DNA from: Siphonodentalium dalli
Lineage: Eukaryota; Mollusca; Scaphopoda; Gadilida; Siphonodentaliidae
Assembly (NCBI GenBank): GCA_032622095.1
Contig: CP136065.1
Span: 154,757,577-154,821,576, forward strand
Direction of reading: 5' to 3'
DNA length: 64,000 nucleotides
Shown here piece by piece: positions 4,131-54,957 of this stretch. Positions within the stretch are counted from its first letter, which is position 1. Every line of letters starts with the position of its first letter. The notes below the pieces were generated by a model. That model was not told where the DNA came from. It made no database searches and saw nothing but the letters and a program-made list of their open reading frames with translations. The position numbers and the translations under genes are program-made.

Positions 4131-4214
4131 CTTGTTCAGATACGGTCTGAGCCCCAGTCATCAAAGCCTGCGTGACAAAATCCATCCCTCCAAATGTCCT
4201 TTGTACTTTGGCAA
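4131..4214 (-). CDS. Coding exon of minus-strand split gene (84 nt, phase 1-1)
   Basis: The minus strand has a pyrimidine-rich acceptor (tattcaatttcag), 84 open nucleotides, then AAG and a gtactaac donor. Two leading bases plus 27 codons plus one trailing base make it a phase-1-1 exon, like those at 15623, 25907, 36064 and 38551. The translation contains VQRTFGGMDFVTQALMTG and AQTVSEQ. It resembles exon 25907-26008 (shared pattern FV..A....G..TVSE.G), which hints at exon duplication within one gene. Product unknown. If the exons are joined it is the most downstream strong exon here, so the gene continues beyond the window. The donor is weaker than those of its sister exons. Confidence 0.7.
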
Positions 4215-4439
4215 CTGAAATTGAATACAGCACATGTACAAGTGAGTACACAAACTCTTAGTTCACATACTAAGCCTTGACAAATGTGAAAATAGTGCAT
4301 GTGTAATGAGTCGACAGCTAAGGCCACTATTTTTTTTATTTGTCAGTTTACATATAATTGTTCTTAACGATAGAGTAGGAGGAGCGAAATAATAAAATGG
4401 TTATGAATTTAATTTTTCATTTTATCAAAACTTTGAGTA

Positions 4440-5311
4440 GGAAGATAAAAACAAATTCAAAATTTAAGTATAAATTCATATATATCAAATCAAATCAAAT
4501 CTTTTATTGAATATATGCTCTGAAATGAGCAGTCAAGATTGATCCATTTCCCATAATAATTAGGACAGTTTCTGTCATTGCATCAGTAGAAAGGGACCAA
4601 CTCACCCTTGTTCACATGCACATAAGCTCTATTAACAATAATGAAAGTGTCAATGACACTGTAGCTCAACTTGGAAAGGGAATAATTTAATGTGTTACTG
4701 TCGATGGAGTGATTAGGAATGTGGAAAGTTGAATGTCTAATACTAGTTTATCAACATGAAGATATATATATATACATGTATATAAAAGTAAAATCTAAGA
4801 TGGTTGCTGGCGGCTATGTTTTCCAACAATTCAAAAACATTTGATAGCTTTAGTCATGCAAAGAGTAGAATCCAAGGAAGATAAAAACAAATTCAAAATT
4901 TAAGTATAAATTCATATATATCAAATCAAATCAAATCTTTTATTGAATATATGCTCTGAAATGAGCAGTCAAGATTGATCCATTTCCCATAATAATTAGG
5001 ACAGTTTCTGTCATTGCATCAGTAGAAAGGGACCAACTCACTCTTGTTCACATGCACAGAAGCTGTAATAACAATAATGAAAGTGTCAATGACACTGTAG
5101 CTCAACTTGGAAAGGGAATAATTTAATGTGTTACTGTCGATGGAGTGATTAGGAATGTGGAAAGTTGAATGTCTAATACTAGTTTATCAACATGAAGATA
5201 TATATATATACATGTATATAAAAGTAAAATCTAAGTTGGTTGCTGGCGGCTATGTTTTCCAACAATTCAAAAACATTTGATATCTTTAGTCATGCAAAGA
5301 GTAGAATCCAA
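4440..5311. repeat. 436-bp direct tandem duplication
   Basis: Two adjacent copies, 4440-4875 and 4876-5311, start gaagataaaaacaaattc and differ at only a few positions (for example near 4625/5061 and 4800/5235). Exact period and very low divergence point to a recent unequal exchange or replication slip. The unit contains (caaat)3, a tatata/tacatgta tract and the sequence 'gtcaatgacactgtagctca', also found diverged at 41350, so it is the upstream part of the dispersed repeat whose downstream part is the 155-bp array. Confidence 0.9.
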
Positions 5312-6545
5312 GATGGCCACTGGCAGCCATGTTTTAATGCCGGTTAACCCAAAAATGACTCGTTCCCATCTACATGTCAATGTCAAAAGTAAAGACAAAT
5401 TTCATAATGATCCGACCAAAGGTACGACCTGTAGCCCCTGCCAAAGGATTTAGTCATGCAAAGAGTAAAATCCAAGATGGCTGCTGGCCGCCATGTTTTT
5501 TGGCCGAATGACCCCAAAATTACTTGTTCCCATCTACATGTCAATATTAACATCCGTGATAAATTTCATGATGATCAGATGAACAGTACGACCTGTAGCC
5601 CGTGCTAATGGATTGAATTTTGAAATCCAAGATGGCCACTGGTGACCATGTTTATTGTCCGAATGACCCCAAAATGACTCGTTCCCATCTATATTCCAAT
5701 TTCAACAGCCATGACAAATTTTATGATGATCAGACTAAAGGTACGACCTGTAGCCCGTGCTAAAGGATTTAGTCATACAAAGAGTAAAATCTAAGATGGC
5801 TGCCGGCGGCCATGTTTTTTGGCCGAATGACCCCAAAATTACTCATTCCCATCTACAAGTCAATGTTAACACCCACGACAAATGTCATGATGATCAGATG
5901 AACAGTAAGACCTGTAGCCCGTGCTAATGGATTGAATTTTGAAATCCAAGATGGCCGCTGGTGGCCATGTTTTTTTCTTCGAATGACCCCAAAATGACTC
6001 GTTCCCATCTACATTCCAATTTCAACAGCCATGAAAAATTTCATGATGATCAGACTCAAGGTACGACCTGTAGTCCGTGCTAAAGGATTTAGTCATACAA
6101 AGAGTAAAATCCAAGATGTTTTTCGGCCGAATGACCCCAAAATGACTCGTTCCCATCTACATGTTATTGTTAACATCCATGACAAATTTTATGATGATCA
6201 GACTACAGGTACGACCTGTAGCCCGTGCTAAAGAATTTAGTCATACAAAGAGTAAAAAGATGGCTGCTGGTGGCCATGTTTTTTGGCCGAATGACCCCAA
6301 AATTACTCGTTCCCATCTACATATCAACATTAACATCCATGACAAATTTCATGACAATAAGGCGAAGAGTACGGCCTGTAGCCCGTGCTAATGGATTGTA
6401 TTTTGAAATCCAAGATGGCCACTGGTGGCCATGTTTTTTTCCGAATGACCCCAAAATGACTCGTTCCCATCTACATGTCAATGTCAACATCCATGACAAA
6501 TTTCATAATAATCGGACCAAAGGTACGAACTGTAGCCCGTGCTAA
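5312..6545. repeat. Tandem array of about eight ~155-bp units
   Basis: Units begin near 5306, 5470, 5622, 5788, 5944, 6110, 6255 and 6408 with aatccaagatggcc or a close variant. Each continues with a 'gaatgaccccaaaatgactc' block, a 'tgacaaatttcatgatgatc' block and ends gtacgacctgtagcccgtgc. Two subtypes largely alternate: one preceded by agtcatacaaagagtaaa, the other by ggattgaattttgaa. Open frames of 60-106 codons here, on both strands, follow the repeat period and are not genes. The array ends with aaaggaaattgttg, as does the diverged copy near 42190. Confidence 0.9.
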
Positions 6546-6559
6546 AGGAAATTGTTGAC

Positions 6560-6646
6560 GAATCACGCACACACATACACACACACGCACGACGAATACC
6601 AATCCATGGCAATAGCTCAAACTTTACAAAGTAAAGTTGAGCTAAC
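6560..6646. other. CA-rich low-complexity tract and short spacer
   Basis: acacacatacacacacacgcac at about 6567-6588 is a short degenerate CA repeat between the tandem array and the next element. Confidence 0.7.
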
Positions 6647-7252
6647 AAGAGGTGTGCACTCGAGTGCTAGCATACCCCCACCGTGGCAAATTCAACCCGC
6701 ATTATCCGTAAACCCAACAAAAAAGATTTTTAACTTTAAAGACAAATTCGGACAAATAATATCGATATGGTGTCACAAGAAGCTTGTACAGAAAAAATTA
6801 TTCAAATTGGTTGATATTTGTTGAAGTTATTAAGTCTGACAGAATTTTCTAAGTCAAAATAAGTCGAAAATGAAGTGTAATATTACGAAAAACAGTCTGA
6901 GCCAATCCTTAGCCGCATCATGTAGAGAGGGTATTGTGAGAAGCATGTATACCAAAAATTATTGAAATCGGTTCATATTTGTTAAAGTTATTATTAAGTC
7001 GGACAGAATTTTCTAAGTCAAAATAAGTCGTAAATGAGGCGTAACTTTTTTTTAAAAAGTCGGACCAAACCGCAATTAGCATTATGCAGAGAGGCAGTCT
7101 TAAGGAGATTGCATACATTATTGAAATCGGTTCATAGTTTTTCGAGTTATGAGGTCGGCCGGACGGACAGACAGACAAACGGAGGGAGAAAACGTGACGG
7201 ACGCAGTCAATCCAGTATAACCCCCATTTTCTTCGAAAGTGGGGGTATAATA
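6647..7252. mobile_element. AACAAGAGG...GGGGGTATA element, copy 1
   Basis: Starts caagaggtgtgcactcgag, has internal direct repeats built on 'ttgaaatcggttcatatttg' and 'gacagaattttctaagtc', then a ggacggacagacagac run, cagtcaatccagtat, and a terminal hairpin of complementary C5 and G5 runs before tataataa. The copy at 8171 shares the structure throughout. No coding capacity. Such elements are common in mollusc genomes; I cannot assign a class with certainty. Confidence 0.75.
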
Positions 7253-7258
7253 ATCAAT

Positions 7259-7712
7259 CCATTTATTACACGCAATCAACAGGTACCACGTTCCAATGCG
7301 TGGGACAATTATTACCCTGATGAGCCTTCAAACACTCAGTAACCATCTACTGCTCCCCGGGGACAGGGGGAGGTACAGACACAATGTGGCTAGCATACTG
7401 ACAATATCTTTCACGAGTCATAATCAGGTACCCTTTTCAACTCATGGGTGGTGTGAAACAGACACAGTAAGAGCAACCTTGCTCAAGGGTTACAACTTGG
7501 AGCGAAATATGAACAGCGTACAATCTGACAATTGCACATCGATCAATTCGGCCAAGCCACTGCTGTGTGAAACTCACATTAGACCAGCGGTGGGCTGTGA
7601 ACTCGCCATTCAAATTTTGCTACCTTCTATGAGCCACAACCGAGGAGACCACAGCTCAGAGAAGGTAGCTCAACCTAAATACGGATCTCGGAGACCCACA
7701 TGGCGGTGATAA
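7259..7712 (-). mobile_element. tRNA-type SINE, copy 1
   Basis: Read on the minus strand it shares a long body with the copy at 9115-9352: cacacagcagtggcttggcc, then 'aacccttgagcaaggt', then a catgagtt block. Its 3' part adds 'actcgtgaaagatattgtca' and a G-rich stretch. The head at 7712 differs from the head at 9352, so two SINE subfamilies with different heads may share one body. Open frames on the plus strand (7034-7709) arise from this repeat. Confidence 0.55.
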
Positions 7713-7722
7713 CCTACATGTA

Positions 7723-7921
7723 CAGTAATGCCCGAAGTATATGACCCTTTAACCATAGTAGAATTATGGGAAATTTTTCAGGATTTTGTCGGAAATAAGC
7801 CTTGTTGCCATTCATCGAGAGCTTTCCGATGAATGGCAGTAAGCCATATTTCCGACTAAATCCTGAAAAATTTCCCATAATTCTGCTGTGGTTTAGGGGT
7901 CGATTATTTAGGACATTACTG
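7723..7921. mobile_element. CAGTAATGCCC foldback MITE, copy 1 (TA target site)
   Basis: Near-palindrome of 199 bp flanked by TA. Ends read CAGTAATGCCC-type and, inverted, GGACATTACTG. The arms contain cagaattatggg and tccgatgaatggc. TA duplication and a CAGT terminus are features of Tc1/mariner/pogo elements, so this is probably a non-autonomous member. About ten copies occur in the window. Confidence 0.85.
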
Positions 7922-7923
7922 TA

Positions 7924-8170
7924 GATGTATAGAGACTTCACAGGGGAAATGATACAATACACATCAATTTTATATCATAATCCTATTGTCTTGACACATT
8001 TCCTCGCTCGTTTCCATGTTAGTAGACATTTAGGCCAATATCAAAAATATTCTATTTTTTGCCCGCCTCGAAACATTATATTATGAAGATTTAGTTCTAT
8101 TTATTATAAAGCCTTTAACTGTATAAAAATAAACAATGCTATTAACTATTCTACCAGCCATACTTGAACA
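7924..8170. other. AT-rich spacer
   Basis: No supported feature between the foldback MITE and the next AACAAGAGG element. Confidence 0.5.
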
Positions 8171-8757
8171 AACAAGAGGTGTGCACTCGAGTGCTAGCAT
8201 ACCCCCACCATGGCAAATTCAACCCGCATTATCCGTAAACCCAACAAATAAGATTTAAAGAAAAATTCGGACAAATAATATCGATATGGTGTCACAAGAA
8301 GCTTGTACAGAAAAAATTATTCAAATTGGTTCATATTTGTTAAAGTTATTAAGTCGGACAGAATTTTCTAAGTCAAAATAAGTCGAAAATGAAGTGTAAT
8401 ATTACGAAAAACAGTCTGAGCCAATCCCTAGCCACATCATGTAGAGAGGGTATTGTGAGCAGCATGTATACCCAAAATTATTGAAATCGGTTCATATTTG
8501 TTAAAGTTATTAAGTCGGACAGAATTTTCTAAGTCGAAAATGAGGCGTAACTTAAAAAAAATAAGTCGGACCGAACCAAAATTAGCATCATGTGGAGAGG
8601 CAGTCCTAAGGAGATTGCATACAAAAAATTATTGAAATCGGTTCATAATTGTTCGAGTTATGAGGTCGGACGGATGGACGGAGAAATGGAGGGAGAAAGC
8701 GTGACGGACGCAGTCAATCCAGTATACCCCCCATTTTCTTCGAAAGTGGGTGTATAA
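8171..8757. mobile_element. AACAAGAGG...GGGGGTATA element, copy 2
   Basis: Starts aacaagaggtgtgcactcg and follows copy 1 at 6647 closely to the terminal C-run/G-run hairpin and tataatta. Differences are mainly short deletions in the internal direct repeats and a G-to-T change in the terminal G run. Confidence 0.8.
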
Positions 8758-9114
8758 TTATGCATCCTCAAAGCCTTTGGTATATTGAGAAGTAGACTAC
8801 CACATACATTGTTGAACTAGCCATGGCTGGCTTTGTTGGCATGAATAAAAAATAAAAAACAAATTTGCCCACACACCAGCTGCACGCACCGCAATTTTTC
8901 AAAATAAGGATAAGAATCTTTCAATTTGTTTTTATTAATAATGACAGTTTTATAAAGCGATTAACCGATTACTTGCTCTAACATGCTTTTAAACATTACA
9001 ATATTAACCCAGTCATTTTTGTACAAGCCAACTAATGAACTGGCTGCAGCCATTGCAGGTGCTGCTCTACTTTGATCAGAACATGCTCTGATACTCAACA
9101 GTATGACAAGCTGA

Positions 9115-9352
9115 CTGGTACTCATTTAACGCATGAGTGGTGCGAAGCAGACGCAGAACGAGCGACCTTGCTCAAGGGTCACAACTTGGCACGGGATTTG
9201 AAACAGCGAACAATCCGAAAATTGCAAGTCGCTCAAAGTGGCCAAGCCACTGCTGTGTGAAGACTCACAATAGACCAGCGACAAGCTGAGAACTCACATC
9301 GCTGTGTTTACAGCGAATACAAGTCATGCTAACCACTGGACTAAGGAGCTCC
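9115..9352 (-). mobile_element. tRNA-derived SINE, copy 2, with A box
   Basis: The minus strand begins ggagctccttagtccagtgg; TAGTCCAGTGG (9333-9343) matches a Pol III A box and resembles tRNA-Glu/Asp 5' halves. A B-box-like gtttcaaatccc lies further in, so the promoter is interrupted or composite. The body, including cagcagtggcttggccac and cccttgagcaaggtcgctcg, matches 7259-7712 at roughly 75-80%. The element ends near gagtacc. Confidence 0.65.
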
Positions 9353-9856
9353 ATATTTATTGTGGACTTATGTGATTATAACCTATTGTCTTATCAGCAA
9401 CTTCCATCGAATCATCATTGTTGAAACCAAATTATCTGATCAGCTATATAAATATAGTAATGCTACAATGCCATGTCGTTTCAAGTTTTACCAGGGTTTA
9501 GTGTGACGACTCTATTGTTATCACTAAACGACCATGCATGTAAGATCTCACATGGGTTAAGTGTGAAAAGTACCAAAGGGAATGCTCACGATGCCATGTC
9601 AAATTATCAACATTCGTGCTTGTCCGCACTAATATCAAGATTATCGTTTACTTTATTTTCCTGAAGAACAATCCAAGCAAGAAGTATTGGCTTTGACGGA
9701 AATGGCCTGTCTGGGTCAACAGATGGCAGACACTAACAATACGTATGAGTTTTGCCCAATATTTTTTAACGAGGGTGAAAAAGATGTGACATAAGTATTT
9801 GATGTAGTACAAAGTCATACGGTATGTAACATGTATACATGTACAATGCAGTGGTA
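9353..9856. other. No gene seen
   Basis: The short open frame at 9473-9664 has no recognisable motif or splice support. 'atcaagattatcgtttac' and 'aagtattggcttt' recur near 10830-10890, so this is probably part of a dispersed repeat. Confidence 0.4.
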
Positions 9857-10068
9857 CAGTAATGCCCTAAATAACCGACTCCTTAACCACAGCAGAATTA
9901 TGGGTAACTTTTTAGGATTTAGTTGGAAATATGGCTTGTTGCCATTCATCGGAAAGCTCTCAGTGGAGCTTTCCGATGAATGGAAAAAAGCCATATTTCC
10001 AACTAAATCCTGAAAAGTTACCCATAATTCTGCTGTGGTTAAGGAGTCGATTATTTAGGGCATTACTG
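9857..10068. mobile_element. CAGTAATGCCC foldback MITE, copy 2
   Basis: 212-bp near-perfect palindrome with TA on both sides (9855-9856, 10069-10070). Centre near 9963 within aagctctcagtggagcttt. Apparently complete. Confidence 0.9.
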
Positions 10069-10233
10069 TATACTCAACCTAAACCATTCACATTTTAACC
10101 TCTAGGAAATCAACATTTGCATTCAGGTTATTTTTCTAACTGCTCAAGTTTAACTTTAAATTAATGTATTCCAAAAGTTAAGGTACCCGTAATAGACAGG
10201 CTAGCTTGATTCATTTTCCGTAATAATGTTAAA

Positions 10234-10660
10234 AGTCAGGCCTTAAAATGAGTTCCCCCAGAGGGAGAATTGTAGTGATGCTACCGGGCTAGTGTGACTA
10301 AATTCAGGCACTGGGGACCTAATTCTACTTAGGCCTCATCTTCTCTGGAAAGTATCTTTATTATCACTTTAACAAGTTCTATAGTTTCTTTTTCTTTTTT
10401 TTAGTTTAGTTTCTCTATATCACCAAATTGGCAGACGACACAATGCATTATTGAGGTGCCCAATGGGTGCACATCACCATCTTCACCAATTTGAAACTTA
10501 AATCTGTATCTAGGTTTCCCATAGCAAATGAGGCCATGCAGAATGAGGTCCTCAGAGGATAAATTTGGTGACACTATTCCGCTGTGCGGGATAGCGTCAC
10601 TAAATTCATCCTCTGGGGACCTCATTCAGCAAATATCCAGCACTATATTTTGAGGCCTGT
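10234..10660. mobile_element. GGGTGAATTTAG-hairpin MITE, copy 2
   Basis: Ends caggcctt... and, inverted, ...tgaggcctg. The left hairpin has decayed; the right hairpin (gaggataaatttggtgac pairing with its complement) is well kept. Confidence 0.75.
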
Positions 10661-11633: not shown

Positions 11634-11711
11634 AGTGTTTCTCTGACTGTTGTCAGCTTGTAGTATCTGAACAAGCCTTGATATGAACAATTGACCATTC
11701 CAATGTACACT

Positions 11712-12501: not shown

Positions 12502-12509
12502 TGACAATT

Positions 12510-13380: not shown

Positions 13381-13383
13381 TTA

Positions 13384-14985: not shown

Positions 14986-14987
14986 TA

Positions 14988-15375: not shown

Positions 15376-15389
15376 CACAGCCTCATGCA

Positions 15390-15602
15390 CAGTAAAGCCC
15401 TAAATAATTGACTCCTTAATTGCAACAGAATTATGGGTAATTTTTCAGGATTTAGTTGGAAATATGGCTTGTTGCAATTCATCGGAAAGCTCTTACTGAG
15501 AGCTTTCCGATGAATGGCAACAAGCCATATTTCCGACTAAATCCTAAAACATTACCCATAATTCTGCTGTGGTTAAGGAGTTGATTATTTCTGGCATTTC
15601 TG
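15390..15602. mobile_element. CAGTAATGCCC foldback MITE, copy 4
   Basis: 213-bp palindrome, cagtaaagccctaaataat to ggcatttctg, with TA on the right and CA on the left. Its right end lies only 20 bp from the exon at 15623-15718, just downstream of that exon's donor on the minus strand. Confidence 0.85.
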
Positions 15603-15622
15603 TATTAATAAAATAAACTTAC

Positions 15623-15718
15623 AAGCTTCAGCAGGTAGTTTCTCTGAGAGTAAATCTTTTGGCATACTTGTTCCTGGCAAGAATATAGCAGGAGATTCTG
15701 ACTGGCTGACACCGTTTA
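15623..15718 (-). CDS. Coding exon of minus-strand split gene (96 nt, phase 1-1)
   Basis: The minus strand has a strong pyrimidine tract and acceptor (tttatatttttcag), 96 open nucleotides, and a strong donor gtaagttta. Two leading bases, 31 codons, one trailing base. The peptide includes NGVSQSESPAIFLPGTSMP and KDLLSEKLPAEA: Ser/Pro/Leu-rich, no recognised domain. The other two frames contain stops or give worse matches to the phase rule. Splice-site quality and the shared phase with 25907, 36064 and 38551 are the evidence; function unknown. Confidence 0.75.
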
Positions 15719-15764: not shown

Positions 15765-16633
15765 TAACGAGATGGACTGTCGTCCGGTGCATACCCCCTC
15801 GTGGCATACCGCCTCGTGTGGGCATATCTATAACTTATGAGGGCTATACTCAGACAGATGGACCCAAACACCAGCATTTTCATATAAACAAAGATGAGTA
15901 ACTATAGAACAATAAAAACAATAACAAACATTTGAATGTGCCATTAAGTGTCCTTATAGTGGTGAACATCCATAAAAAATTTCATTGAGATCCGAGCATT
16001 ACTGTTCAAGTTATGAGCTGAACAGACATTGGATGGACCAAACAACCAATATTTCCAGATAAACAAAGATGAATAACTCTAGAATGGAAAAGCAGAACAG
16101 AACAATGGAACCCTCTATTGGATGTCCTCATAGTAGTGAACATCCATACCAAATTTCATTGAGATCCCAGCACAACTGTTGAAGTTACGACATGAACAGA
16201 CACCAGACGGACCAAAAAGCCAACATTTCCAGATAAACAAAGATGTATAACTCTAGAATGGAAAATCCGAACAAAACAATGGAACCCTCTTTTTAATCTC
16301 CTCATAGTAGTGAACATCCATACCAAATTTCATTGAGATCCCAGCACAACTGTTGAAGTTATGACATGAACAGACACCAGACAGACAAATCCAACATTTC
16401 AAGATAAACAAAGATGAATAACTCTAGAATGGAAAATCCGAACAAAACGATGTAACCATCTATTGAATGCCCTCATGGTAATGAAAAGCCATACAGAATT
16501 TCATTGAGATCCGAGCACTACTGTTCAAGTTATGACATGAACAGACATCGGACGGACGTACGGACGCACGGTACGACGGACGGACAGGTGCAAAACAGTA
16601 TACCCCCCTTTTTTAAAAAAGGGGGTATAATAA
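15765..16633. mobile_element. GACGGACGG element with tandem ~120-bp units
   Basis: Five or so units built on 'ccagataaacaaagatgaataactctagaatgg' (15880-16520), each ending 'caaatttcattgagatcc' and 'agcac(t)actgttgaagttatgac'. Then a run of gacggacg and a perfect terminal hairpin (16599-16629; tatacccccc paired with gggggtata). The same architecture as the AACAAGAGG elements; the start is degraded, so the left edge is approximate. Confidence 0.7.
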
Positions 16634-19290: not shown

Positions 19291-19291
19291 G

Positions 19292-19914: not shown

Positions 19915-20598
19915 TAGGGTTGCAACAATTCAGAACTTCATGGTGCGATGCTAATCGCGATTTTGCTATCACGATGTGATGCGCATCGCTATGCAAATTT
20001 TTGGCAACTGACAGCTGTGAAAACTAGATGAACCACTTAATCATTTGTATATACAGTAATGCCCTTAATAATCGACTCCTTAACCACAGCAAAATTATGG
20101 GTAACTTTTCAGGATAAAGTCGGAAATATGGCTTGTTGCCATTCATCGGAAAGCTCTGAGAGAATTATGGGTAACTTTTCAGGATTGAGAGCTTTCCGAT
20201 GAATGGCAACAAGCCATATTTTCGACTAAATCCTGAAAAGTTACCCCTCATTCTGCTGTGGTTAAGGAGTCGATTATTTAGGGCATTACTGTATATATAT
20301 ATAATCATATGTATATTCTCATCAGTGTTCATTTTCATTGAAGTAAATTATAAGACCTAACTAAAATGACCAAAATGCATGGCCAGGTATTAGAAGTAGA
20401 CTATAATAGATAATACAGTCACCAGATCAACCCAAATGGGAAATTTTGAGAGGAAAAGTTTGAATCTTTGACTATTTAAAACTCTGCATATGTACAAGAA
20501 TTGTTTTTGCATCGCATCACACCCTCCCAATACAATGCATTGCATCGTGAACTTTATAACGGAATGCATCAGAATCGCGATGAATCATGGCAGCCCTA
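19915..20598. mobile_element. hAT-type element with 8-bp target duplication
   Basis: Ends TAGGGTTGC... and, inverted, TAGGGCTGC (684 bp). Flanks are CTTATTTC (19907-19914) and CTTGTTTC (20599-20606), 7 of 8 identical, as for a hAT duplication. Removing it restores tgtgtacttatttcagtgat, which matches the uninterrupted relative near 20963. Subterminal GCGAT/ATCGC motifs cluster at both ends. It contains a later foldback MITE (20054-20291) and no transposase. Confidence 0.85.
20054..20291. mobile_element. CAGTAATGCCC foldback MITE, copy 5, nested in hAT
   Basis: TA-flanked. Near the centre an extra copy of agaattatgggtaacttttc (20160-20184) has been inserted into the left arm, apparently by template switching. 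Younger than the surrounding hAT element. Confidence 0.9.
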
Positions 20599-21607: not shown

Positions 21608-21722
21608 CCCCCCCCCCCCCCCATTGTCCTCAGTCCTCAGATGATGCTGATGAATAATGATGATGATGATGAAAATGATGATGATGACGACGATGATGAT
21701 GATGGGGATGTTGATGATGATG
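21608..21722. repeat. Poly-C run and GAT/ATG microsatellite
   Basis: Fifteen C residues at 21608-21622, then an imperfect (gat)n block to 21722. Apparent Asp-rich and His-rich open frames on either strand come from this tract. Confidence 0.95.
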
Positions 21723-22613: not shown

Positions 22614-23830
22614 TTAAAGGTACTCAATCTGATCAGACAGTCCCCATATCAAAGATACAACAACACTATTTCTTCAAAATACCCTTCAGTTATCAGAATC
22701 GATTAATTGAAACAAAAACAAGAGGTGGCATCAGAGATGCTGTGTCTCGTTTTCGGTGGCTTACCACCGGTGGCTACCGCCAATTGGTGTGCATCAGTAT
22801 CGGTAGACTAATTAATAGGTAAAATCGAAAAATGACTAATTAAGGGCCATAACTCTATCAAATTTTATCGGGCCAGGCTGGTTTTCGAACTCGTCCGAAA
22901 TATTCTTGGCAAGTATGTCTATTCCAAATTTGAAACAAATCGGAGGACGTTTGTTGAAGTTATCGCGCTAACGAGCTAAAAATTCATGAAAAATGACTAA
23001 TTAAGGGCCATAACTCTATCAAATTTTATTGGGCCAGGCTGGTTTTCGAACTCGTCCAGGATATTATTGGAAGACACTTATATACCAAATTTTAGTTGAA
23101 TAGGATGATGTTTGTTAAATTATCGCGCTAACGAATTGAAAATTTGTGAAAAAATGACTAATTAAGGGCCATAACTCGATCAAATTTTATCGGACCTGGC
23201 CGGTTTTCGAACTCGACCGAGATATTCTTGGGAGACACCTATATACCAAATTTCAATCAAATCGGATAACGTTTGTTGAAGTTATCGCGATAACGAGCTG
23301 AAAATTCGTGAAAAATGACTAATTAAGGGCCATAACTCTATCAAATTTTATCGGACCAGGCCGGTTTTCGAACTCGTCCGAGATATTCTTGGGAGACACC
23401 TATATCCCAAATTTCAATGAATCAGATAACGTTTGTTGAAGTTGTTGCGCTAACAAGCCTAAAATCAGTGAAAAATGGCAAAGGGCCATAACTCTGTAAT
23501 AAATGTGCGGACGAACCCGATTTTTTTGTCTGCAGCTTACGTGCATGGAAATATACTCACACACCAAAATTTTTTTTAATCCGTCAATAAACGGTTGAGT
23601 TATAAGCAAAACACGCCGCCCGCCTGCCCGTCCGCTGCCCGCCCGCCCACCGTCCCTCATCAAACTATAAGTCGAGTTTAGGAAACTATGGTATCAAATT
23701 TCCAAAAACGTGTTATTTATCAACATTTTGTTCAATGAAATATGGCTGTATTATCACTTGAGTATCATGAAATTTTTCTGGGCCACAAATAATTGCACAT
23801 CTCGACAAATAAAAAACTTCTTCATTTATT
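22614..23830. mobile_element. TTAA-flanked AGGTACT element, copy 2, interrupted
   Basis: The left part (22614-22716) and the right part (about 23685-23830, from ggtatcaaatttcc to ctcgacaaataaa) align to consecutive parts of the copy at 11167-11633. Between them sits the AACAAGAGG element 22717-23665, inserted after ttgaaacaaaa. Confidence 0.75.
22717..23665. mobile_element. AACAAGAGG element with four ~155-bp internal repeats
   Basis: Starts aacaagaggtggcatcag directly inside copy 2 of the AGGTACT element. Units built on gggccataactctatcaaat begin near 22840, 23000, 23160 and 23320; each ends 'gtttgttgaagttatcgcgc'. The end is a C-rich cccgcccgcc tract (the complement of the usual GGACGG type is not present) and the terminal hairpin is missing. 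Confidence 0.75.
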
Positions 23831-25906: not shown

Positions 25907-26008
25907 TATTGTGTAGTAAACCTGCCTCAGAGACGGTCAGACCAGGTTTGATTGCTGACATAACAAATGTGGGTAACTGTGATACAAGGATTGGCCCTGG
26001 TGACTGAC
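25907..26008 (-). CDS. Coding exon of minus-strand split gene (102 nt, phase 1-1)
   Basis: The minus strand has a long pyrimidine tract and acceptor (ttcttctgctttgcag) and a near-consensus donor gtaagtgaag. Two leading bases plus 33 codons plus one base; the other two frames have stops. The peptide contains QSPGPILVSQLPTFVMSAIK and PGLTVSEAGLLHN. It resembles exon 4131-4214 (FV..A....G.TVSE.G). Best splice signals in the window. No domain recognised; hydrophobic/Ser/Pro composition would suit a flexible or regulatory region. Confidence 0.8.
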
Positions 26009-32943: not shown

Positions 32944-33388
32944 CCTGAGTTCAGTGTGCCTGTCATTTGCAGAATGAGGTCCCCAGAGGGTGAATTTTGT
33001 GATGCTATCCCGCAGTGGGCTAGTATCACTAAATTCACCCTCTGGGGACCTCATTCTGCTTAGGCCTCACATTCTCTAAAAAGTTTCTTTATTATCAAAT
33101 TTCTATAGAAATTCTTCACATAGATTCTATTTTTTTTTTAGTTTAGTTTCTCTATATCCCCAAATTATATGATGAAACATTGCATAATCGAGGTTCCCAA
33201 TGGGTGTACATCGCAATATTCACCATTTAGAAACCTCAATCTGAGTCTGTCTCCCACAGCAGATGAGGCCATGTAAAATGAGGTCCCCAGAGGGTAAATT
33301 AGGTGATGCTAGCCCACTGTGTGAGATAGCATCACTAAATTCACCCTCTGGGGACCTCATTCTGCAAATGACAGGCAAAACTCAGACT
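32944..33388. mobile_element. GGGTGAATTTAG-hairpin MITE, copy 5
   Basis: Left ctgagttcagtgtgcctgtc and right, inverted, agtctgagttttgcctgtc. Both terminal hairpins are well preserved, so this is a good structural reference copy. Confidence 0.9.
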
Positions 33389-34833: not shown

Positions 34834-34936
34834 CATTGACATAAGCATGCAAGAATTTCTTGTTTGGCGCCAAATTAAATTTGTGGGATATTAGTATTTC
34901 AACACCATTCAAATAAACAGTCCGAACTCTTGCCAT
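34834..34936 (-). CDS. Possible coding exon abutting a TTAA element
   Basis: Minus-strand frame from an ATG at 34936: MARVRTVYLNGVEILISHKF then NLAPNKKFLHAYVN, ending one base before a gtaaattg donor, again phase 1. The ATG lies directly next to the TTAA boundary of the element at 34938-36035, so an upstream acceptor would have to be supplied by that element (ttttaaag, in phase 1, is a weak candidate). The V.xVYLNG start faintly resembles a doublecortin-type repeat, but it is too short to call. Either a first exon, an exon truncated by the insertion, or chance. Confidence 0.35.
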
Positions 34937-34981
34937 ATTAATAACCTTTTCTTTAAAATGCTCATTGACGACTAGTTCCTT

Positions 34982-35358
34982 TAGGGCCCTGCAAATCGGA
35001 AATTCGGCAACTGTATCGAATCTCGAATCGAATCGGTTGTTTGATATCGACATCGAATCTGAATCGAATCAGGACAATCACTGAACCACAAGTGTTTAGA
35101 ATGTTATAACAGTTACATGTATATGTACATCCGCGAAATGGCGACAGACTATTATTGGATGCAATCACGTAAACTCTCAATTACATCATACGCGGCACCG
35201 GCGAGACCTCCATATGGGAAAACACGATTCAATGCGGAAATTGCTTCTTTAATTGAGCCCCATAAATTAGTTGTTTGTCCCCATAAACAGGAAAGAATGG
35301 GCCGTTTCGAAAATATACCAATCGAATCTTCGAAGCTTCACAGCTTCACAGGGTCCTA
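34982..35358. mobile_element. hAT-type MITE with perfect 8-bp target duplication
   Basis: Ends TAGGGCCCTG and, inverted, TAGGACCCTG. AGTTCCTT flanks it on both sides (34974-34981, 35359-35366). CGAATC motifs cluster near 35015-35065. Related to the 56450 and 28468 elements. 377 bp, no coding capacity; the open frames here are repeat-derived. Confidence 0.9.
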
Positions 35359-36063: not shown

Positions 36064-36165
36064 CGTTCATATGGTTCACAGATGTGCACGCCGTGTATAC
36101 ACCTGATACTGTATCTGGTTCAACATATGATGAAGTCTCAATGCTCGAGGGTGCAGTCACAGCAA
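36064..36165 (-). CDS. Coding exon of minus-strand split gene (102 nt, phase 1-1)
   Basis: Acceptor gacgtgtgtcctttcag and consensus donor gtgagttta on the minus strand bracket 102 open nucleotides (two bases, 33 codons, one base). The peptide includes AVTAPSSIETSSYVEPDTVS and GVYTACTSVNHMN: Ser/Thr-rich, no domain recognised. Same phase as its neighbours. Downstream, on the minus strand, the composite TTAA element begins 28 bp after the donor. Confidence 0.75.
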
Positions 36166-38550: not shown

Positions 38551-38646
38551 CATTTAGTAGTACTTTTCTGTCCATTTCGTGGTTTGAAGCACATGTTGTT
38601 GGCATTATATATACTTTTCTGTCAGAAGGATGTACTAGTAGTCTAT
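38551..38646 (-). CDS. Coding exon of minus-strand split gene (96 nt, phase 1-1)
   Basis: Acceptor with a CT-rich tract (gtactctctcttgcag) and donor gtaagtacat bracket 96 open nucleotides on the minus strand: two bases, 31 codons, one base. The peptide contains RLLVHPSDRKVYIMPTTCAS and NHEMDRKVLLN, where RK-V patterns recur. No recognised domain. Upstream in the gene is the 54873 candidate, downstream 36064. Confidence 0.75.
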
Positions 38647-41349: not shown

Positions 41350-42200
41350 AATTGTCAATGACACTGTAGCTCAACTTGGAGAGGGGATAATGTCACACAT
41401 TACAGTCAAAGGAGCAAACAAGAATGTGGAAAGTTTACATGTTTAATTAAGTCAACCCGAAGAGCCAATTGAAGTTTTGGTATCAATTGGATGAAAAATG
41501 TTGGCTGTAGGGCATGCAGAAGTATTTAGTGATGCAAAGAGTAAAATCCATGATGGCTGCCATCTAGATGTGATCCTAAACATGCCTATTAATTTTCAAA
41601 ACAATTCTCTTATAATTTATATAAATGCAGACTGCAGGGTGCACGAATGGATACAAATTTGAAATTCAAGATGACTACTGACGCCATATTTTTTAACATA
41701 TTTGGAAATAATTATGGCTCCCATCTAGAGGTCATCCCGAAGATGCGTATGAATTTTGGTGATGATCATATGCGGGATGTGGCCTATAGGGGGTGCCAAA
41801 GTATATAGTCATGCAAAGAGTAAAATCTAAGATGCCACTGGCGTCCATGTTGACAAATTTGATGGCTCCCATCTAGAAATCACCCAAAACACCATATAAA
41901 TTTGGTGATGATCGGATGAGGGATGGGGTCTCTAGGGTGTACCAAGGATTTAGTCATGCAAAGAGTAAAATGCAAGACAAGATCCTAACATACCTGCATT
42001 ATCCAATAAATGCAGCCAGCAGGGTGTGCATGGATTCAAATTTAGTATCCAAGTAGGCTGCTGGCTGCCATGTTTTTGTTTTTTTTCTTCAGAAAAAATT
42101 GATTGCTCCCATTTAGAGGTCACCCCAAAGATGAAGTTTGGTGATGGTTGCATGAGAGATGTGACCTGTACTAAGGGTGTGCAAAAGGAAATTGTTGATG
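41350..42200. repeat. Diverged copy of the 4.4-6.5-kb repeat
   Basis: Starts tgtcaatgacactgtagctc as at 4650, continues with units containing agtcatgcaaagagtaaaat, 'caagatg..' and 'ggtgatgatcggatgaggga', and ends aaaaggaaattgttgatg as at 6546. Four degenerate units, much older than the array at 5312. Confidence 0.75.
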
Positions 42201-44032: not shown

Positions 44033-44935
44033 ACTGGTAAAAAAAGGGGCATAAAAATTGGCGGACGGAACTCAAATTTGAACTTGACCTGTGTTTTGGT
44101 GGGAGAAAGTAATATACCAAATTATCATTGAATCCGATAAGCTCTAGTAAAGTTATCATGCGGACAACAAATTTCAGGGATTTTCTAAGTCAAATGACGT
44201 CAAATAAGGGGCATAACTCCGGTGAAAATTGGCGGACGGAACCCAAATTCGAACTTGAACTGTCTTTTCTCCTAATAAACCCACATACCAAATTTGATTG
44301 AAATCGGTTCACTCTAACTAAAGTTATCATCCGGACAACAAATTTCAGGGATTTTCTAAGTCAAATTACGTCAAAAAAGGGGCCATAACTCCCGCAAAAA
44401 TTATCGGATTAAAACGAAATTCGGACTTGAGCTGTATTTCGATATATGTAATCCACAAAAAAACGGGTTTTGCGTATAAACATTCCAAAATCGAGTTATC
44501 ATCTGGAAACCAAAAAACATAAGAAAAACGGAATTTTCTGAGTCGAAAAAGGGGCATAACTCTGCCAAAAATGGTCGGACAGAACCCAACAGAACCCGAA
44601 CTTGACCTGTGTTTTGGTGGGAGAAAGTAATATACCAAATTTGGATTCATTCCGATAAACTATACTAAAGTTATCAAATTTCAATTTCAAGGATTTTCTA
44701 AGTCAAAAAACGTTAAATAAGGGGCATAACTCCGGTGAAAATTGGCGGGCGGAACCCAAATTCGAACTTGAACTTACTTTTCGGCTAATAAACCCACATA
44801 CCAAATTTTACTAATTTTGGTTCACTCTAACTAAAGTTATCATCCGGACAACAGGTTAACGGACGGACGCCCGGACGGACAGACCAATACTATAATACGG
44901 CCTTTTTTTCAAAAGGGCGTATAAAAATCAAAACC
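44033..44935. mobile_element. GACGGACGG element with ~165-bp units, inside hAT remains
   Basis: Units start aaggggcataactcc(ggtgaaaattggcgg) near 44040, 44207, 44376, 44545 and 44716 and carry 'ataccaaatttg' and 'aaagttatcatccggacaac'. Ends acggacggacgcccggacgg, then ttcaaaagggcgtataaaaa. Immediately after it, ccgcccatctcta (44934-44946) is a hAT-type end. Confidence 0.75.
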
Positions 44936-45244: not shown

Positions 45245-45590
45245 TAAGTTAATTGGACATACCGGGAATGGCAGGAGCTGAACTTATCGAAAATGCATTG
45301 TGCCGTGATCGTGCCCTGGTCCTGCATGTTGGAAGTATATCATTCACCTTTGCCAGCAAAATATTGGTATGGCCAAAACCGTCCAGCCGTACCCAGAATT
45401 GTGCCCTCGGTCATTCTTGTTGGTCAATATATTCCAATTAACCTCGAAAAAGTAAAGTGTCTACAGACAGACGGACAAACAGACGGATGGATGGATGGAC
45501 GACAGACAGAAGGACGGACGAACGACGAGTGGTCAATCCAGACTTCGACACTATGTGTACCATACTATAGTATGGGTACACATAAAAACA
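45245..45590. mobile_element. GACGGACGG element, 'gtacacata' subtype, 5'-truncated
   Basis: ggacagacagaaggacggacg, gacgagtggtcaatccagac and a hairpin (gtgtaccatactatagtatg/ggtacacata) at the end. The long overlapping frames here (45253-45607) include a QTDGQTDG run encoded by the GACGGACGG repeat; not genes. Confidence 0.7.
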
Positions 45591-46240: not shown

Positions 46241-46628
46241 AGCCTGTGGGCTAGCAGCACCAAACTCACCCTCTTGGGACCTCATTCTGCATGGCCTCAT
46301 CTGCTTTGAGAGACATAGACTCAGATTGAAGTTCCCAAATGTTGAATATTGTGATGTACACCCATTGGGAACCTCGATTATGCATTGTGTCGTCGCCAAA
46401 TTTGGGGATATAGAGAAAGTAAACTAAAAAAGAAATATAATCTATGTGAAGAAGTTTCTATAGAAATTTGATAATAAAGAAACTTTCCAGAGAAGATGAG
46501 GCCTAAGGAGAATTAGGTCCCCAGAGGGTGAATTTAGTGATGCTAGCCCACAGTGCGGGATAGCATCACTGAATTCACCCTCTGGGGTCCCCATTCTGCA
46601 TATGACAGGCACACTAAACACCAGCTTG
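46241..46628. mobile_element. GGGTGAATTTAG-hairpin MITE, copy 7
   Basis: Left hairpin reduced (agcagcaccaaactcaccc), right hairpin intact (agggtgaatttagtgatgct and complement). Opposite orientation to copy 5 by its core sequence. Confidence 0.85.
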
Positions 46629-47352: not shown

Positions 47353-47482
47353 AAGGCTCATAATAGTGCCATATTTCCACCATGTCCGAATGTCTGATGA
47401 CTTAAATTTGATCCATCAGGCCATTTTGCCATTTACCAGTTATTTTTATTGCCACAGTAAGGTTTTTTAACATGCACATATT

Positions 47483-48076: not shown

Positions 48077-48180
48077 GCATTGTGTTGCACATGGGGCAGC
48101 CATAAGTGTCAGCACCTTGATACCATGGTGTACCCAGCATAAGGTTATCCCTGAACATGATGACATGAGAGGATTGGAGG

Positions 48181-48620
48181 CAAGTCTGAATTTAGTGTGT
48201 CTGACATTTGAAGAATGAGGTCCCCAGAGGGTGAATTTAGTGATGCTACCCCATACAGCAGGTTAGCATCACTAAATTCACCCTCTGGGGACCTCATTCT
48301 GCTTAGGCCTTCTGGGAAATATAGATCTATAGTCTCAAATTAACATTGTTTGAGTGACTTTTTCCCTTGTGGGAAGTTTCTTTTTCTCCCTAATTTGCAG
48401 AAGATAAAATGCATATCCGAGGTGACTAATGGGTGAACATCACCAACTTCAACTGGGAAATTCAATCTGCTCCTATGTTTCCCATAGCAGTTGAGACCTA
48501 AGCAGAATGAGGTCCCCAGAGGGTGAATTTGGTAATGCTGGCCTGCCTGTGGGATAGCGTCACTAAATTCACCCTGGGGACCTCATTCTGCATATGTCAG
48601 ACACACTAAATTCAGACTTG
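48181..48620. mobile_element. GGGTGAATTTAG-hairpin MITE, copy 8, best preserved
   Basis: Inverted ends of about 40 bp (caagtctgaatttagtgtgt, then ctgacat) nearly perfect, both hairpins clear. 440 bp. Useful for defining the family boundaries. Confidence 0.9.
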
Positions 48621-48621
48621 A

Positions 48622-48801
48622 GCGGAAGTAAAACATTTATCCAAGAGGTTTTGTGATGAGTCTGATATTCTGTTGGTCTGGAAGAGCATTGCTCATTGCA
48701 TCGCTGATCGATTTTGTGATGATCATGGTACTGAGAATGCAGATGGCGACAAAATGTCTGACAGATACCATGTCAAATTTGAACGCCTAGCCATGTCGTA
48801 G
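48622..48801 (+). other. Open stretch of 59 codons, origin unclear
   Basis: Between TGA at 48619 and TAG at 48799 one plus frame is open and protein-like: KHLSKRFCDESDILLVWKSI, AHCIADRFCDDHGTENADGD, KMSDRYHVKFERLAMS. It has no ATG near its start and no clear splice acceptor. 'taccatgtcaaatttgaacg' near the end resembles blocks of the GACGGACGG repeats, so it may be repeat-derived. Confidence 0.25.
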
Positions 48802-49419
48802 ATGTAGCTCAAAAGTTGGCCCACTATAATTACACAACTGAGCAATCCACTTCTCATATTTACTAGTAATTAGATAACTTGTCTGAACCATATTGCAATT
48901 ATTTTCCAGTTTGAATGGACATTTTATTTCATGAAAAAATTACATTGAATGGCTTCATTCAGGAGTGCATAACTTAAAGATGGTCTATCTCTTCCCAGAA
49001 AGTTTTATATAGATTCTGGACTATAAAATAATAGATATGAATCTTTCTGGAAAATATTCTACCATTATCAATTTTAGTTAGAATTTCTTTTGACATTTGT
49101 GGGTGGAACAGTTTTAGGGGCTCTTTTTAGAACAGAAATAAATGCAAAAACGATTGGAATGTACCATGAGTGTACCAAGAGAGAGCACTCTATCTTGTTA
49201 GCACTCCCAATCAAGGCAAATTGCAGATCAGCTATGAGATTTATCATGATTTACAATAAAAAATAAACCACTTTATTATGCCTCTAGACAAGTAATATAC
49301 ATGTACCCCATCTTAGGTTTTATCTGTATTTTTTCACAAAATAGCTATTTGTGGTCTTGAAATTGTGATTTATAAAAATATGTTGTTGTTGTAATTGTGG
49401 TCCGACAGAAATGTTTAGT
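48802..49419. other. AT-rich, no gene
   Basis: 'ctatctcttccc' plus 'tatatagattct' near 48990-49020 is also found near 808-832 and 14096, so another dispersed repeat is present. Confidence 0.4.
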
Positions 49420-52400
49420 CCACCAAAATCGCTCACAAAATCACTTAAATCATGACATTTTGAGATTGAACCTTCCCCTACAGTGAAGTACATTATTAAG
49501 GAACAGATAATAACTAAGAAATATATTCCCTGCAATTTACTTGAGTAGCTCATGGTGGTTTTGTATGCACTTGTATGTCCAGAGCTAAACTCTTCATGAA
49601 ACCACTAATTGAAGGTCCAGGAACAATATTTGGTTGGTAACACATTTCCCATTGAGGGCGAAATGGGTGAAATGGCCACGCCCTTTTTGCGCGAAGTACT
49701 ACCATCCATATCTCCAGGACCGTTGGACATAGGTTTTCTGACCACTCAAAGTGTGAAGAATGGCCACATTATGGGGGGTCAGTAATACATTTTCATATCC
49801 AAAAGTCAATGGTTTTTAAGATAATTGCCAAAAACCCAAAAAAATCCATTTTTAAGGGTCTGAACCCCAATTTTGGGTTCAGCACATTTATCTCAAAGTT
49901 GAGCCCCCCAATTAGAATTTTATTGACCTATATCCATCGGTGCCACATACATGTATCATTTCTGATATGTTCTGTACATTTATCGGATGGGATTGACCTT
50001 CAAGGAGCTCTTGATCCTGAAAATAAGGTTTTTGGATGGAATATATTGGTTGTAGCATGAAAAAAACAGACATTTTCCCAATAACAATGATGTTGAAGAA
50101 ACCATCAATTATAGGGTATTTGATCAGTAACCTAAAACTCCTGCAAAAAGGTTACCTGGTGATATAATTGGATGTAGTTCATCTTTTGTTTTGTTAGTTC
50201 ATCTAGATTTCATGCCCTTTGATGTAAGAAAACAAGTCATAAGAAAGATGCAGTTGCAGTAATATTAAAATATATTGTCCTGTTCAAAACTAACAAATGC
50301 ATGTCTATTGGTTATTGGTGTGATATCCAGTAATAAAGACTGAAAATAATCCTTCAGATTATTTTATAAGGGCTTTAGTCCAGTTATAATAAATCCACAC
50401 ATTAAAAATATAGGGCTTCCATACATACAGAATACCTTCCAACTTGACAATCGTTCCTTGTGTTCAACTAAGTGAGTTCATGTGAGGTTCATGGAAACTT
50501 ATTTGGCAACCTTGATTCTAAAGTGTCTAGCTTTATGGGCTTGAAATTCCGAATGCAATCCAGTTGCGTCATGAGTTCAGAGTGAGTTAGAAGAAAAATA
50601 CAAGCATTATTTTTTTTATGTATGTATATGTGCCACTCCAAAAATGTTAGTAAAAGTACTGTAATCCGTTTGGTTTTATGTTATAGGCACAGGAGTTATA
50701 TATATACTTTACATGTAAAATATTGTGAACCATGCAGGTACATGTATGTGTGTCAGTCGCTTTAGGTGTGTGGTGTACATGCAGTAACTACATGTATATT
50801 TTAGTGAAATTAATGGTCTGCACTCTGCAGTATTTCAAAAAACATGCTATGGCCATGCCTACATATACATATGTACACTGATTCTAACACTATGATTGTC
50901 AGGTTATAATCTATGTTTGAGGAAAGTTACTATGTATTTTTCATTTGTGTTGCATTTGTCAATATTAATGGGTCCCAGAAGGCGGAAGCCCAGATGTTAC
51001 TAGTGCAGAGCCCATTTAATTTTCATGAGACTGGTGGACTGCATGTCCATACTCCTATATAACATGACTTCTATCAAACCTAGATGGTATTGTGTAGGTT
51101 TTACTAGAATTATATTTAGAAAAAACTCAACCATTATTTTCCACTGCCCTTATTATATATCACAATATATTCATTTGGCAGTATTCATCCCAAGTTTAGT
51201 GGTGATGCTAATAAATTTGGTATGATACTCAGGTAGAGCAAAGCGATCTGAACAAATCGAGGATAAGCCACTCTGTGTAGAAAACATTAAAAAACATGTA
51301 TATTGTGAAATATTTTAATAATGGCTGCTGGTTTTTACAAACTGGCCATAATTGAGATCACTATTCCTGTTGTTTACCAAACATCAGCGTACACATTAAA
51401 TATTTTGAAATATATATGTTCTTGAATGTTTCATACAGACACTGACTTTTGCACAAATTGCTCGGATTAGCCAAACAATGCAAAAATAACCAACTTTAGG
51501 TAAAATGATGGTACTCTTTCTTAACAGAATCGCTTTGACCTACAAACATCATAGCAATCCAGTAGTACCCATCAGCATGATATAAATTAGCAGGACCACT
51601 TAACCTGGGGTGGTATTGAAAATGAAAATATCTTTAAAATGGTAAGTTATGAGGGCTATTAGCTATTATGAAGAATTATGTTAGTGAAATTATAGACCAT
51701 CATCTTCTTCAACCTGCAAGTGCTGCAACTATCATGGCCAATCAAAACTAATGTGGGACTGCATGACAAAGGCTCATTCTACTATTGATTGAATAGTGAT
51801 GATTCCATCATTTCCTAAATCTTTTTGTGAGATGAGGTGTCCTTTTGGAAGAATTGATTACTTCTGAAATATATACTGGTATATATGGTCATCTCTTATC
51901 TGATTACAACATGTTTTTACTATGCCAAGATGCAATACCTATTTTAATATTGCAACATGTGGCTGCTGCATGAAGCAAACAGCTGGTCATTCCATTTAGT
52001 AAAAGTGTTTAGCATGTTTCATAGCTTTGTTGATAACAAATTATGAAAACCTGTTTTGTTCAATCTGTACATTTCTGTTGATTAGAGCACAATTGTTACC
52101 TGATTTTTGGTAAAGCACACCAGTTTCCAAGGCATGTTCAAAGTCGGGAAGAGCATATGTTGTGTGTCGGGATCAACACATTCTCAGCAGCAATTTCCAG
52201 CTAATCCCATTGTGTGTGGTCAATTGTGCTCTTAAGTCGGTCAGAGCATGGGGATAGTTCTTTAAAAAGTGTCATACATATGTTGTGGCCTTGGTGGTAT
52301 TGTATACCTGTGGTGCGTAACATGCTGAAATCGGTTTTTGGCAATTATCTTAAAAACCATTGACTTTAGGATATGAAAATGTATTACTGACCCCCCATAC

Positions 52401-53915
52401 TGTGGATTTTCAGGGTCAAGAGCTCCTTGAAGGTCAATCCCATCCGATAATGGTACAGAAATTATACCTGTATGTGGCACCGATGGATATAGATCAATAA
52501 AATTCTAATTCGGGGCTCAGTTTTGAGATAAAAGTGCTGAACCCCAAAATTGGGGTTCGGGCCCTTAAAAATGGAATTTTTGGGGGTTTTGGCAATTATC
52601 TTAAAAACCATTGACTTTTGGATATGAAAATGTATTACTGACCCCCCATAATGTGGCCATTCCGCAAATTTTGTGTGGTCAGGCAACCTCCTATGTCCAA
52701 CGTTTCTGGAGATATAGTCACGTCGGATGGTAGTACTTCGCACAAAAAGGTCGTGGCCATTTCACCCATAATGGGAAATGTGTTACCAACCAAATATTGT
52801 TCCTGGACCTTCAATTAGTTGATTCATGATGAGTTTAGCTCTGGACATACAAGTGCATACAAAACCACCATGAGCTACTAGAGTAATTATATCTCGACTT
52901 TATAAGGTTCCCTGTCAAAACTTCAAAAAAGTTCCAAGGTTTTTCACTGGTGAAATATGATCTCTACAGGCGTTAGCAAGAGTAGCGATTCATGGCATGA
53001 TCTAATGTATTCAAATCCTGCAATAACTGCTGATTTAGATGTTAAAAAGGTTTTAAACTTGCCAGAAAGCTACAAAGCTTGAAAATGAAGCTGAGGTAGG
53101 CCATTCCATTGATTGATTTAATATCAAATCTATTGGCATCTAACTTTCCCACCACAGAATGAAAACCCATCCTGATATTGGCATTTCCGCAAGACATTGC
53201 AAGAATCCAGCCCACACATGTTTACACACCGTCATTCCATCATCATGTGCAAGCAGATCACGAGATCAAAAGAATGATATTTAACTCTTTAATCCCGAAT
53301 GAATTCTCCCATTAAATTTGTAAATTATAAAACATTATTCTTCATTTGTAGGGAAGTTTCTGATAATTTATACAGAGACACATCATTGGATTCTCATTCA
53401 ATATTAAGTAGATCATGCCATGAATCTCTACAAAGTACAAAGCCTTGGAACTTTTTGAAGTTTTGACAGGGAACCTTTAATATAAAGGTGAAAAATTACC
53501 GTGGGGAATATATTTCTAGTTATTATATGTTCCTTAATATAAATGTACTTCACTGTAGGCCAAGGTTCCAACTCGAAATGTCATGACTAAAGTGACTTTG
53601 TGAGCGATTTTGCTTTGCGTCACTTACAATTATGGAATTTATACTGGGTAATTAATTCAATGTTTATTGCGATATTGGCTCAGAAAAGTCACAGTAAAGC
53701 ATGCAATTTTGAGTTGGGACCTTGGCCTACAGTAAAGTACAGTATTACTAGTAAAGAACGGATAATAACTAAGAAATATATTTCCCACGTTATTTTTTTC
53801 GACTTTATAAGGTTCCCTGTCACAACTTCAAAAAGTTTCAAGGCTTTGTACTGGTGGAATATGATCTCTACGGGCGTTAGCCAGAGTAGAGATTCATGGC
53901 ATGATCTAATTCAAT
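49420..53915. mobile_element. 4.5-kb inverted-repeat complex
   Basis: The left arm 49420-50025 is inverted at 52403-53615, the latter interrupted by a separate element (52896-53490). Shared landmarks are aaaatcgctcacaaaatcac, 'gaaggtccaggaacaatatt', gtagtacttcgc and 'gggattgaccttcaaggagc'. Within the right arm, ggcaattatcttaaaaacca is duplicated (52340 and 52590). A further direct copy of the outer segment at 53676-53915 makes a second palindrome centred near 53645. The 2.3-kb middle (50030-52320) holds no recognised gene. This could be a large foldback transposon or repeated insertions of one element in both orientations. Confidence 0.7.
52896..53490. mobile_element. AAGGTTCCCTGTC element nested in the inverted-repeat complex
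   Basis: Inverted ends of about 40 bp: aaggttccctgtcaaaactt, then caaaaaagttccaagg. Removing it rejoins the arm sequence ctactagagtaatt / ggggaatatatttctagt, matching 49507-49556 inverted. A partial copy of its left end lies at 53796-53915. Confidence 0.75.
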
Positions 53916-54018
53916 AAGATGCAGGGATGCTCAGACTGAAGGCCTTTAAAGTGGGCTCATATGATATAACATAATTTTTTATAAAAGTCTATAAAACAAC
54001 TGTCATCATCAACAAGTA

Positions 54019-54170
54019 CATGTAATGCTCTAAATAATCGACTCCTTTAATAACCACAGCACACCGAGAGCTTTCCGATGAATGGCAACAAGCCATATTT
54101 CCGACTAAATCCTGAAAAGTTACCCATAATTCTGCTGTGGTTAAGGAGTCGATTACTTAGGGCATTACTG
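54019..54170. mobile_element. CAGTAATGCCC foldback MITE, copy 10, left arm deleted
   Basis: catgtaatgctctaaataatc, then a jump from accacagcac to gagagctttccgatg; right arm complete. TA flanks. Confidence 0.85.
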
Positions 54171-54539
54171 TAAATAAAAATAGAAAGACTTTGTTCTTAT
54201 TTTCATTATTAACCTTTAACAGACGTAAACGTACACGTCACGTGCTATATGGTCCATAGGTACTACAGACCTACTTCAGCACACTAGCAGTAGGCCATTA
54301 GTCATAACTGGAATTCAGATACTGTTGCATCGGAATAACTGTATCTCGAAGTTTCAAACAGTGTATGATGTTCCACGATTGTAAACGATAATCATAATAG
54401 CCTTTCAACTGAGTCAGTTTTATGGTTCTTGTGATATTCCCATTATATTTTTTCATTAGAAATGGCAATAACGTCAACAGCCCAGCACACAACGTCATTT
54501 AGCAGTGAAGAGGTTAATAACTCTCCATTAATGAGATTT

Positions 54540-54845
54540 CACATGTCAAATCCATTGTTATGTAAACATTACTGTTACATTGACATAGTCCAATAAGTAC
54601 CCAAGTTTTATCAAAACTTGATGGTAAACATTGGAAAGTTTCAAGCATTGAAAAATATTCTGAAAATTATTTGAATTTACTACACTACACGATTAGCAGT
54701 GTTTGTTGACAAATCACTATGACAGTCTTGTTATCATAACAATGGTTTCAACACACAAAATTTCATTATTATCGAACTATTAATAATGAATACAAAACAA
54801 AGTTTAACTATTTCTCCATGTTCTTCTTGGTGGTGATCTTTTAAC
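54540..54845. repeat. Dispersed repeat, inverted relative to 17030-17290
   Basis: Contains ttttatcaaaacttgatgg and ends at atttctccatgttcttctt. It ends less than 30 bp from the donor side of the exon at 54873. Confidence 0.5.
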
Positions 54846-54872
54846 AGACTTTTATAATTTTTTCACATTTAC

Positions 54873-54957
54873 CTGCTTCGAAGGCCTTTAACATTGCAAT
54901 AAGAGTGCCTTTGGTCCCTTTAACAAACATCCTAGTACTCATTAGCTCAACATCCAT
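54873..54957 (-). CDS. Possible first coding exon of minus-strand split gene
   Basis: Minus-strand frame from ATG at 54957: MDVELMSTRMFVKGTKGTLI then AMLKAFEA, ending GCA G before a gtaaatgtg donor. The phase (1) matches the acceptor phase of 38551-38646, so the join would be in frame. A TAA lies upstream in the same frame near 54980. If it is an internal exon instead, an acceptor after a CT-rich tract (cattcatttctatggatgttgag) would give phase 0, which fits less well. The protein is not recognised. The plus-strand frame at 54905-55168 overlaps and is judged a shadow. Confidence 0.6.

Follow-up and report, generated by a model that had tools for sequence, protein, structure and literature searches.

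Six short stretches on the minus strand of a 64,000-nucleotide window of Siphonodentalium dalli DNA (the window being the whole stretch analyzed) can be read as successive exons of one coding sequence, here called E1 to E6 (Table 1). Joined, they give 565 nt, or 188 codons, with no stop. Every internal boundary is in phase 1, and AG and GT are present at the edges of each of E2–E6, E1 having a donor only. An earlier note on this DNA had proposed the six stretches, their stop-free joined frame and the uniform phase of their boundaries, and all of these are borne out. From the coordinates, E1 and E2 are separated by 16.2 kb, and the introns from E2 to E6 measure about 2.4, 10.1, 10.2 and 11.4 kb in turn. 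The splice scores given below are log2 odds from approximate animal weight matrices, and the coding scores come from a generic codon model of general frequencies; both are untrained.

Table 1. Candidate exons and tandem arrays in the window (positions counted from its first base)
Feature	Positions	Strand	Properties
E1, possible first coding exon	54873-54957	-	85 nt, ATG to donor, ends in phase 1; donor 4.8
E2, internal exon, phase 1-1	38551-38646	-	96 nt; acceptor 4.9, donor 5.9, coding 1.0, total 11.8
E3, internal exon, phase 1-1	36064-36165	-	102 nt; acceptor 2.0, donor 6.6, total 15.6
E4, internal exon, phase 1-1	25907-26008	-	102 nt; acceptor 8.2, donor 2.0, total 12.5
E5, internal exon, phase 1-1	15623-15718	-	96 nt; acceptor 4.1, donor 2.5, total 14.5
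E6, probable internal exon, phase 1-1	4131-4214	-	84 nt; acceptor 1.4, donor -0.1, coding 7.7, total 9.0
Tandem array	4439-5312		period 436 nt
Tandem array	5285-6549		period ~164 nt
Tandem array	15855-16557		period 174 nt
Tandem array	22827-23495		period 161 nt
Tandem array	44053-44853		period 171 nt
Tandem array	63487-63910		period 151 nt

In each of E2–E6 the claimed frame is open and scores highest for coding, and one to three stops close each of the remaining sense frames; some antisense frames are also open in E2, E3, E5 and E6. GC content is 0.43–0.48 in E3–E6, against 0.34–0.39 in the 4-kb blocks of the window. E2 has its weak points here, namely its coding score and a GC content of 0.34, despite good splice sites. 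E3 is the highest-scoring symmetric candidate of 78–108 nt on the minus strand. None of E2–E6 overlaps a self-repeat; E1 shares just one base with such a repeat. The donors of E4, E5 and E6 are modest or weak.

The exon scan was run without the coordinates of the earlier note; its length limits of 78–108 nt, which bracket the claimed exons, and its score cut of 11.5 were chosen after the finding had been seen. Requiring symmetric phase, a length within these limits, at least 1 for each splice site and a total of at least 11.5, the minus strand yields no candidates in phase 0, four in phase 1 and none in phase 2, and the four are E2–E5. The plus strand yields one, two and none, all three in repeats: a GAT microsatellite (21641-21721), a self-repeat (42093-42176) and an overlap with a tandem array (3050-3157). 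Third-order Markov shuffles, 400 in number, gave on average 0.09 candidates in phase 0, 0.05 in phase 1 and 0.06 in phase 2, with never more than two in any phase. Since four phase 1 candidates were found against a mean of 0.05, E2–E5 are beyond chance.

On splice sites alone (60–250 nt), E2, E4, E3 and E5 come first, second, third and fifth among 11 minus-strand phase 1-1 candidates. With 60–160 nt, a total of at least 10 and each site still at least 1, half of the eight minus-strand candidates are E2–E5; the other half consists of two overlapping reads of a tandem array (3026-3152) and two stretches lying wholly in self-repeats (46270-46423, 33224-33361). At the loosest limits (50–300 nt, sites from -1, total at least 10) the minus strand has 11 non-overlapping candidates, E2–E5 included, versus a mean of 4.05 for all phases in second-order shuffles (n = 20); five are in phase 1-1, four of them E2–E5, where the shuffles average 0.55 and reach 3 at most. 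The seven additional candidates include 45263-45321, 57996-58119 and 1813-1940, which are in other phases and outside self-repeats, as well as 34834-35058, which is in phase 1-1 and is described below. The strictest thresholds, used in the initial exon scan, passed E2 alone, and the looser ones were used afterwards.

The two ends of the model are less firm. E6 has a total under the 11.5 cut, and its frame continues without a stop for 30 codons beyond its weak donor; it probably belongs to the same gene as E2–E5. A usable acceptor was sought for E1 and none was found (the best nearby scores -2.4), so that E1 is possible only as a first exon. Its start context is weak, with T three bases before the ATG. 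Among minus-strand ATG-started reads ending in phase 1 (60–150 nt, donor at least 4.7) there are four donors, with scores of 13.8, 10.6, 4.4 and -2.0; E1 (10.6) is second, behind a read that extends E3, and on the plus strand the same limits give three reads scoring 4.6–6.3. Shuffled sequences contain on average 0.083 starts scoring at least 10.5. Because an equally good start is present at least once in 8% of 300 shuffles, E1 is a plausible start exon, not an established one. The “good splice sites” of the earlier note are therefore a fair description for E2–E5 and a generous one for E6, with no usable acceptor at E1; its single gene is, by the shuffles and the frame control, the best reading for E2–E5 and probably E6, its start in E1 having the standing just given.

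Several other stretches in the window resemble exons. Possible further starts end at 57688, 55023 and 59715, and there is a terminal candidate at 3347-3417; none is a clear winner. The first of these starts (57688-57742, minus strand) is signal-peptide-like and ends in a phase 1 donor (3.9), with 0.42 such starts expected per shuffle; it is at chance level, and a lead only. A minus-strand stretch of 225 nt at 34834-35058 is open and in phase 1-1 (score 10.4), with one fifth of its length in self-repeats and no significant match in Pfam. On the plus strand, 42093-42176 is exon-like and in phase 1-1, with an acceptor of 8.3, three Cys and a score of 15.3; it lies wholly inside a self-repeat and has no Pfam match.

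The surroundings are rich in repeats: 39% of the bases in the window are in self-similar repeats, and there are 25 tandem repeats and 96 inverted-repeat pairs of at least 40 nt within 9 kb. Among the 25 longest of the 96 pairs, one (60957-61201 / 62673-62917) has arms of 245 nt that are 99% complementary and 1,471 nt apart, and has the look of a young element bounded by terminal inverted repeats. Two other inverted pairs, at 49537-49877 / 52543-52886, have arms of 147 and 130 nt, 92–94% complementary and 2.7–3.1 kb apart, and cover open, exon-like stretches that are similar to each other and lie on opposite strands. A family of MITE-like hairpins (7715-7929, 9855-10070, 15389-15603, 20040-20305) has arms of 103–118 nt, 84–96% complementary, with loops of 5–30 nt; the third ends near E5. 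The repeat word AAGGGCCATAACTC, which is common in bivalves, has six copies in the window, five of them within the array of period 161 nt. Repeat words from the window gave no hit in viral or prokaryote contigs, nor in the literature searched. No tRNA (ARAGORN, bacterial code) and no Rfam family was found in the window. The earlier note had described introns full of transposons. Their repeat content, in self-similar sequence, inverted pairs and tandem arrays, agrees with this; the transposon part finds no counterpart in Pfam, where ten sequences, seven long ORFs out of the 393 stop-to-stop ORFs of at least 50 aa in the window and three exon candidates, gave no transposon domain. The only Pfam row in that scan was DUF5433, below its cut-off (E = 0.099). 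On these ten sequences, the repeats look non-autonomous.

The joined protein was said to be unrecognizable, and it is so in the databases searched. Pfam returned no family up to E = 10 for the joined protein, E2–E3 or E4–E6, and NCBIfam none for the joined protein; in PDB the joined protein had three chance-level rows (E 0.86–1.7) and E4–E6 none. No relative was found in viral contigs (IMG/VR), nor for E4–E6 in prokaryote genomes (with a query approximate at its junctions), as is to be expected of an animal gene. The predicted fold of E4 alone is not informative (mean pLDDT 66, pTM 0.24). The description of the protein as rich in Ser, Thr and Pro is correct as a count (19, 17 and 12, or 48 of 188 residues, 26%) and somewhat strong as a characterization: the enrichment is modest, at 27.5% in E2–E6 versus about 20% in an assumed background. 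By eye, E4, E5 and E6 have in common a hydrophobic pair followed by a Ser-Glu pattern. The summed peptide similarity of E2–E6 against residue shuffles has p = 0.045 (global) and 0.065 (local), and the best of 15 exon pairs in each mode are E4–E6 (local, p = 0.006) and E2–E3 (global, p = 0.032). With p near 0.05, a peptide repeat family common to the exons is suggestive only, and not established.

Mucin-like or linker stalks of extracellular proteins are enriched in Ser, Thr and Pro and encoded by modular exons, without a recognized domain. E2–E6 are like these stalk regions in all three respects, and differ from them in that the enrichment is modest and no repeat unit is established as common to the exons. 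The peptide encoded by E2–E6, mildly enriched in Ser, Thr and Pro, may be a flexible linker or stalk within a larger protein.

Taken together, the likely reading is that E2–E6, possibly with E1, are exons from a single protein-coding gene of an animal, which lies on the minus strand and is incomplete here. What else might produce such a pattern? One possibility is that there is no single gene: two or three of the exons (E3, E4 and E5) would be real and the rest frames open by chance whose ends resemble splice sites, or more than one gene would be represented. The weaker members of the series lend this some weight, E1 having no acceptor, E6 a weak donor and E2 a low coding score, as do the frequency of shuffled starts as good as E1 and the further same-strand candidates admitted by looser limits. 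It is nonetheless unlikely: the four strongest symmetric minus-strand candidates of 78–108 nt are all in phase 1-1 and outside self-repeats, and the other two phases of that strand yield none.

Decay of a former gene, leaving remnants or exons that are no longer translated, would be consistent with the repeat-rich surroundings and with the lack of a recognizable homologue in Pfam or PDB; five internal exons clear of self-repeats, with no in-frame stop and with AG and GT at each edge, make a pseudogene very improbable. Still harder to credit is pure chance, by which 64 kb of A+T-rich sequence (GC 34–39% across 4-kb blocks) would hold open frames that happen to be flanked by splice-like dinucleotides. 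Single candidates do arise in this way, at a mean of 0.28 per shuffle for phase 1-1 and a score of at least 8, and the plus strand is also richer than the shuffles, with its three at 11.5 or above. Those three sit in repeats, however, and four in one phase at that cut were reached in none of the 400 shuffles.

For the single-gene reading, the remaining question is how unusual such a gene would be. Mean introns of 2,805 bp in Arctica, 2,171 bp in Panopea and, depending on the method, 3,060–4,848 bp in Anodonta are among the values in the available parts of the bivalve sources. The introns of about 10 kb in the model exceed these averages (2.2–2.8 kb, and 3.1–4.8 kb for Anodonta), as far as those excerpts extend; they are long, not extraordinary. 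Long phase 1 introns together with 1-1 exons are known from mammalian brain genes, and phase 1 introns of more than 50 kb mark a set of 153 human-mouse genes that are enriched in 1-1 exons and of which 83 have a signal peptide at the start (PMC7259759, available text). The model is like the genes in the available text of that study in that its introns are long and all in phase 1 and its internal exons all 1-1. It is unlike them, on the same text, in that theirs are mammalian with introns of more than 50 kb, whereas the introns from E2 to E6 are of 2.4–11.4 kb and a signal peptide is not established. On the signal peptide count and the 1-1 enrichment given in that text, an extracellular or membrane protein is therefore the more likely class here. 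Genes for proteins of this class typically have 1-1 exons, so by analogy the host protein is probably extracellular or membrane-bound, a role read from exon phase and composition alone. E2–E6, possibly with E1, probably form part of an ordinary animal gene whose large introns are rich in repeats, a structure of a known kind.

If so, the region from E2, or perhaps E1, to E6 would be transcribed from the minus strand and its exons joined in that order. The pre-mRNA would span more than 34 kb from E2 to E6 and carry cassettes of 28–34 residues, each between phase 1 introns. All introns seen are in phase 1, and single exons are therefore skippable without a frameshift: any one internal exon could be kept or skipped with the frame intact, and the cassettes may be spliced optionally. 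The modest donors of E4–E6 would fit such optional inclusion. The end of the gene, any conserved domain and perhaps its true start would lie outside the window. A more far-reaching version can be imagined, in which a lineage-specific protein is encoded by a long series of symmetric, rapidly diverging cassette exons of about 33 residues, with one repeat per exon over more than 50 kb, giving many isoforms in any combination; this seems quite improbable. Should the single-gene reading be true, the locus would be one more animal gene without an assigned family, of a kind, with short exons and long introns, that is easily missed by gene predictors, and, with all of its cassettes between phase 1 introns, it would be a candidate for combinatorial splicing.
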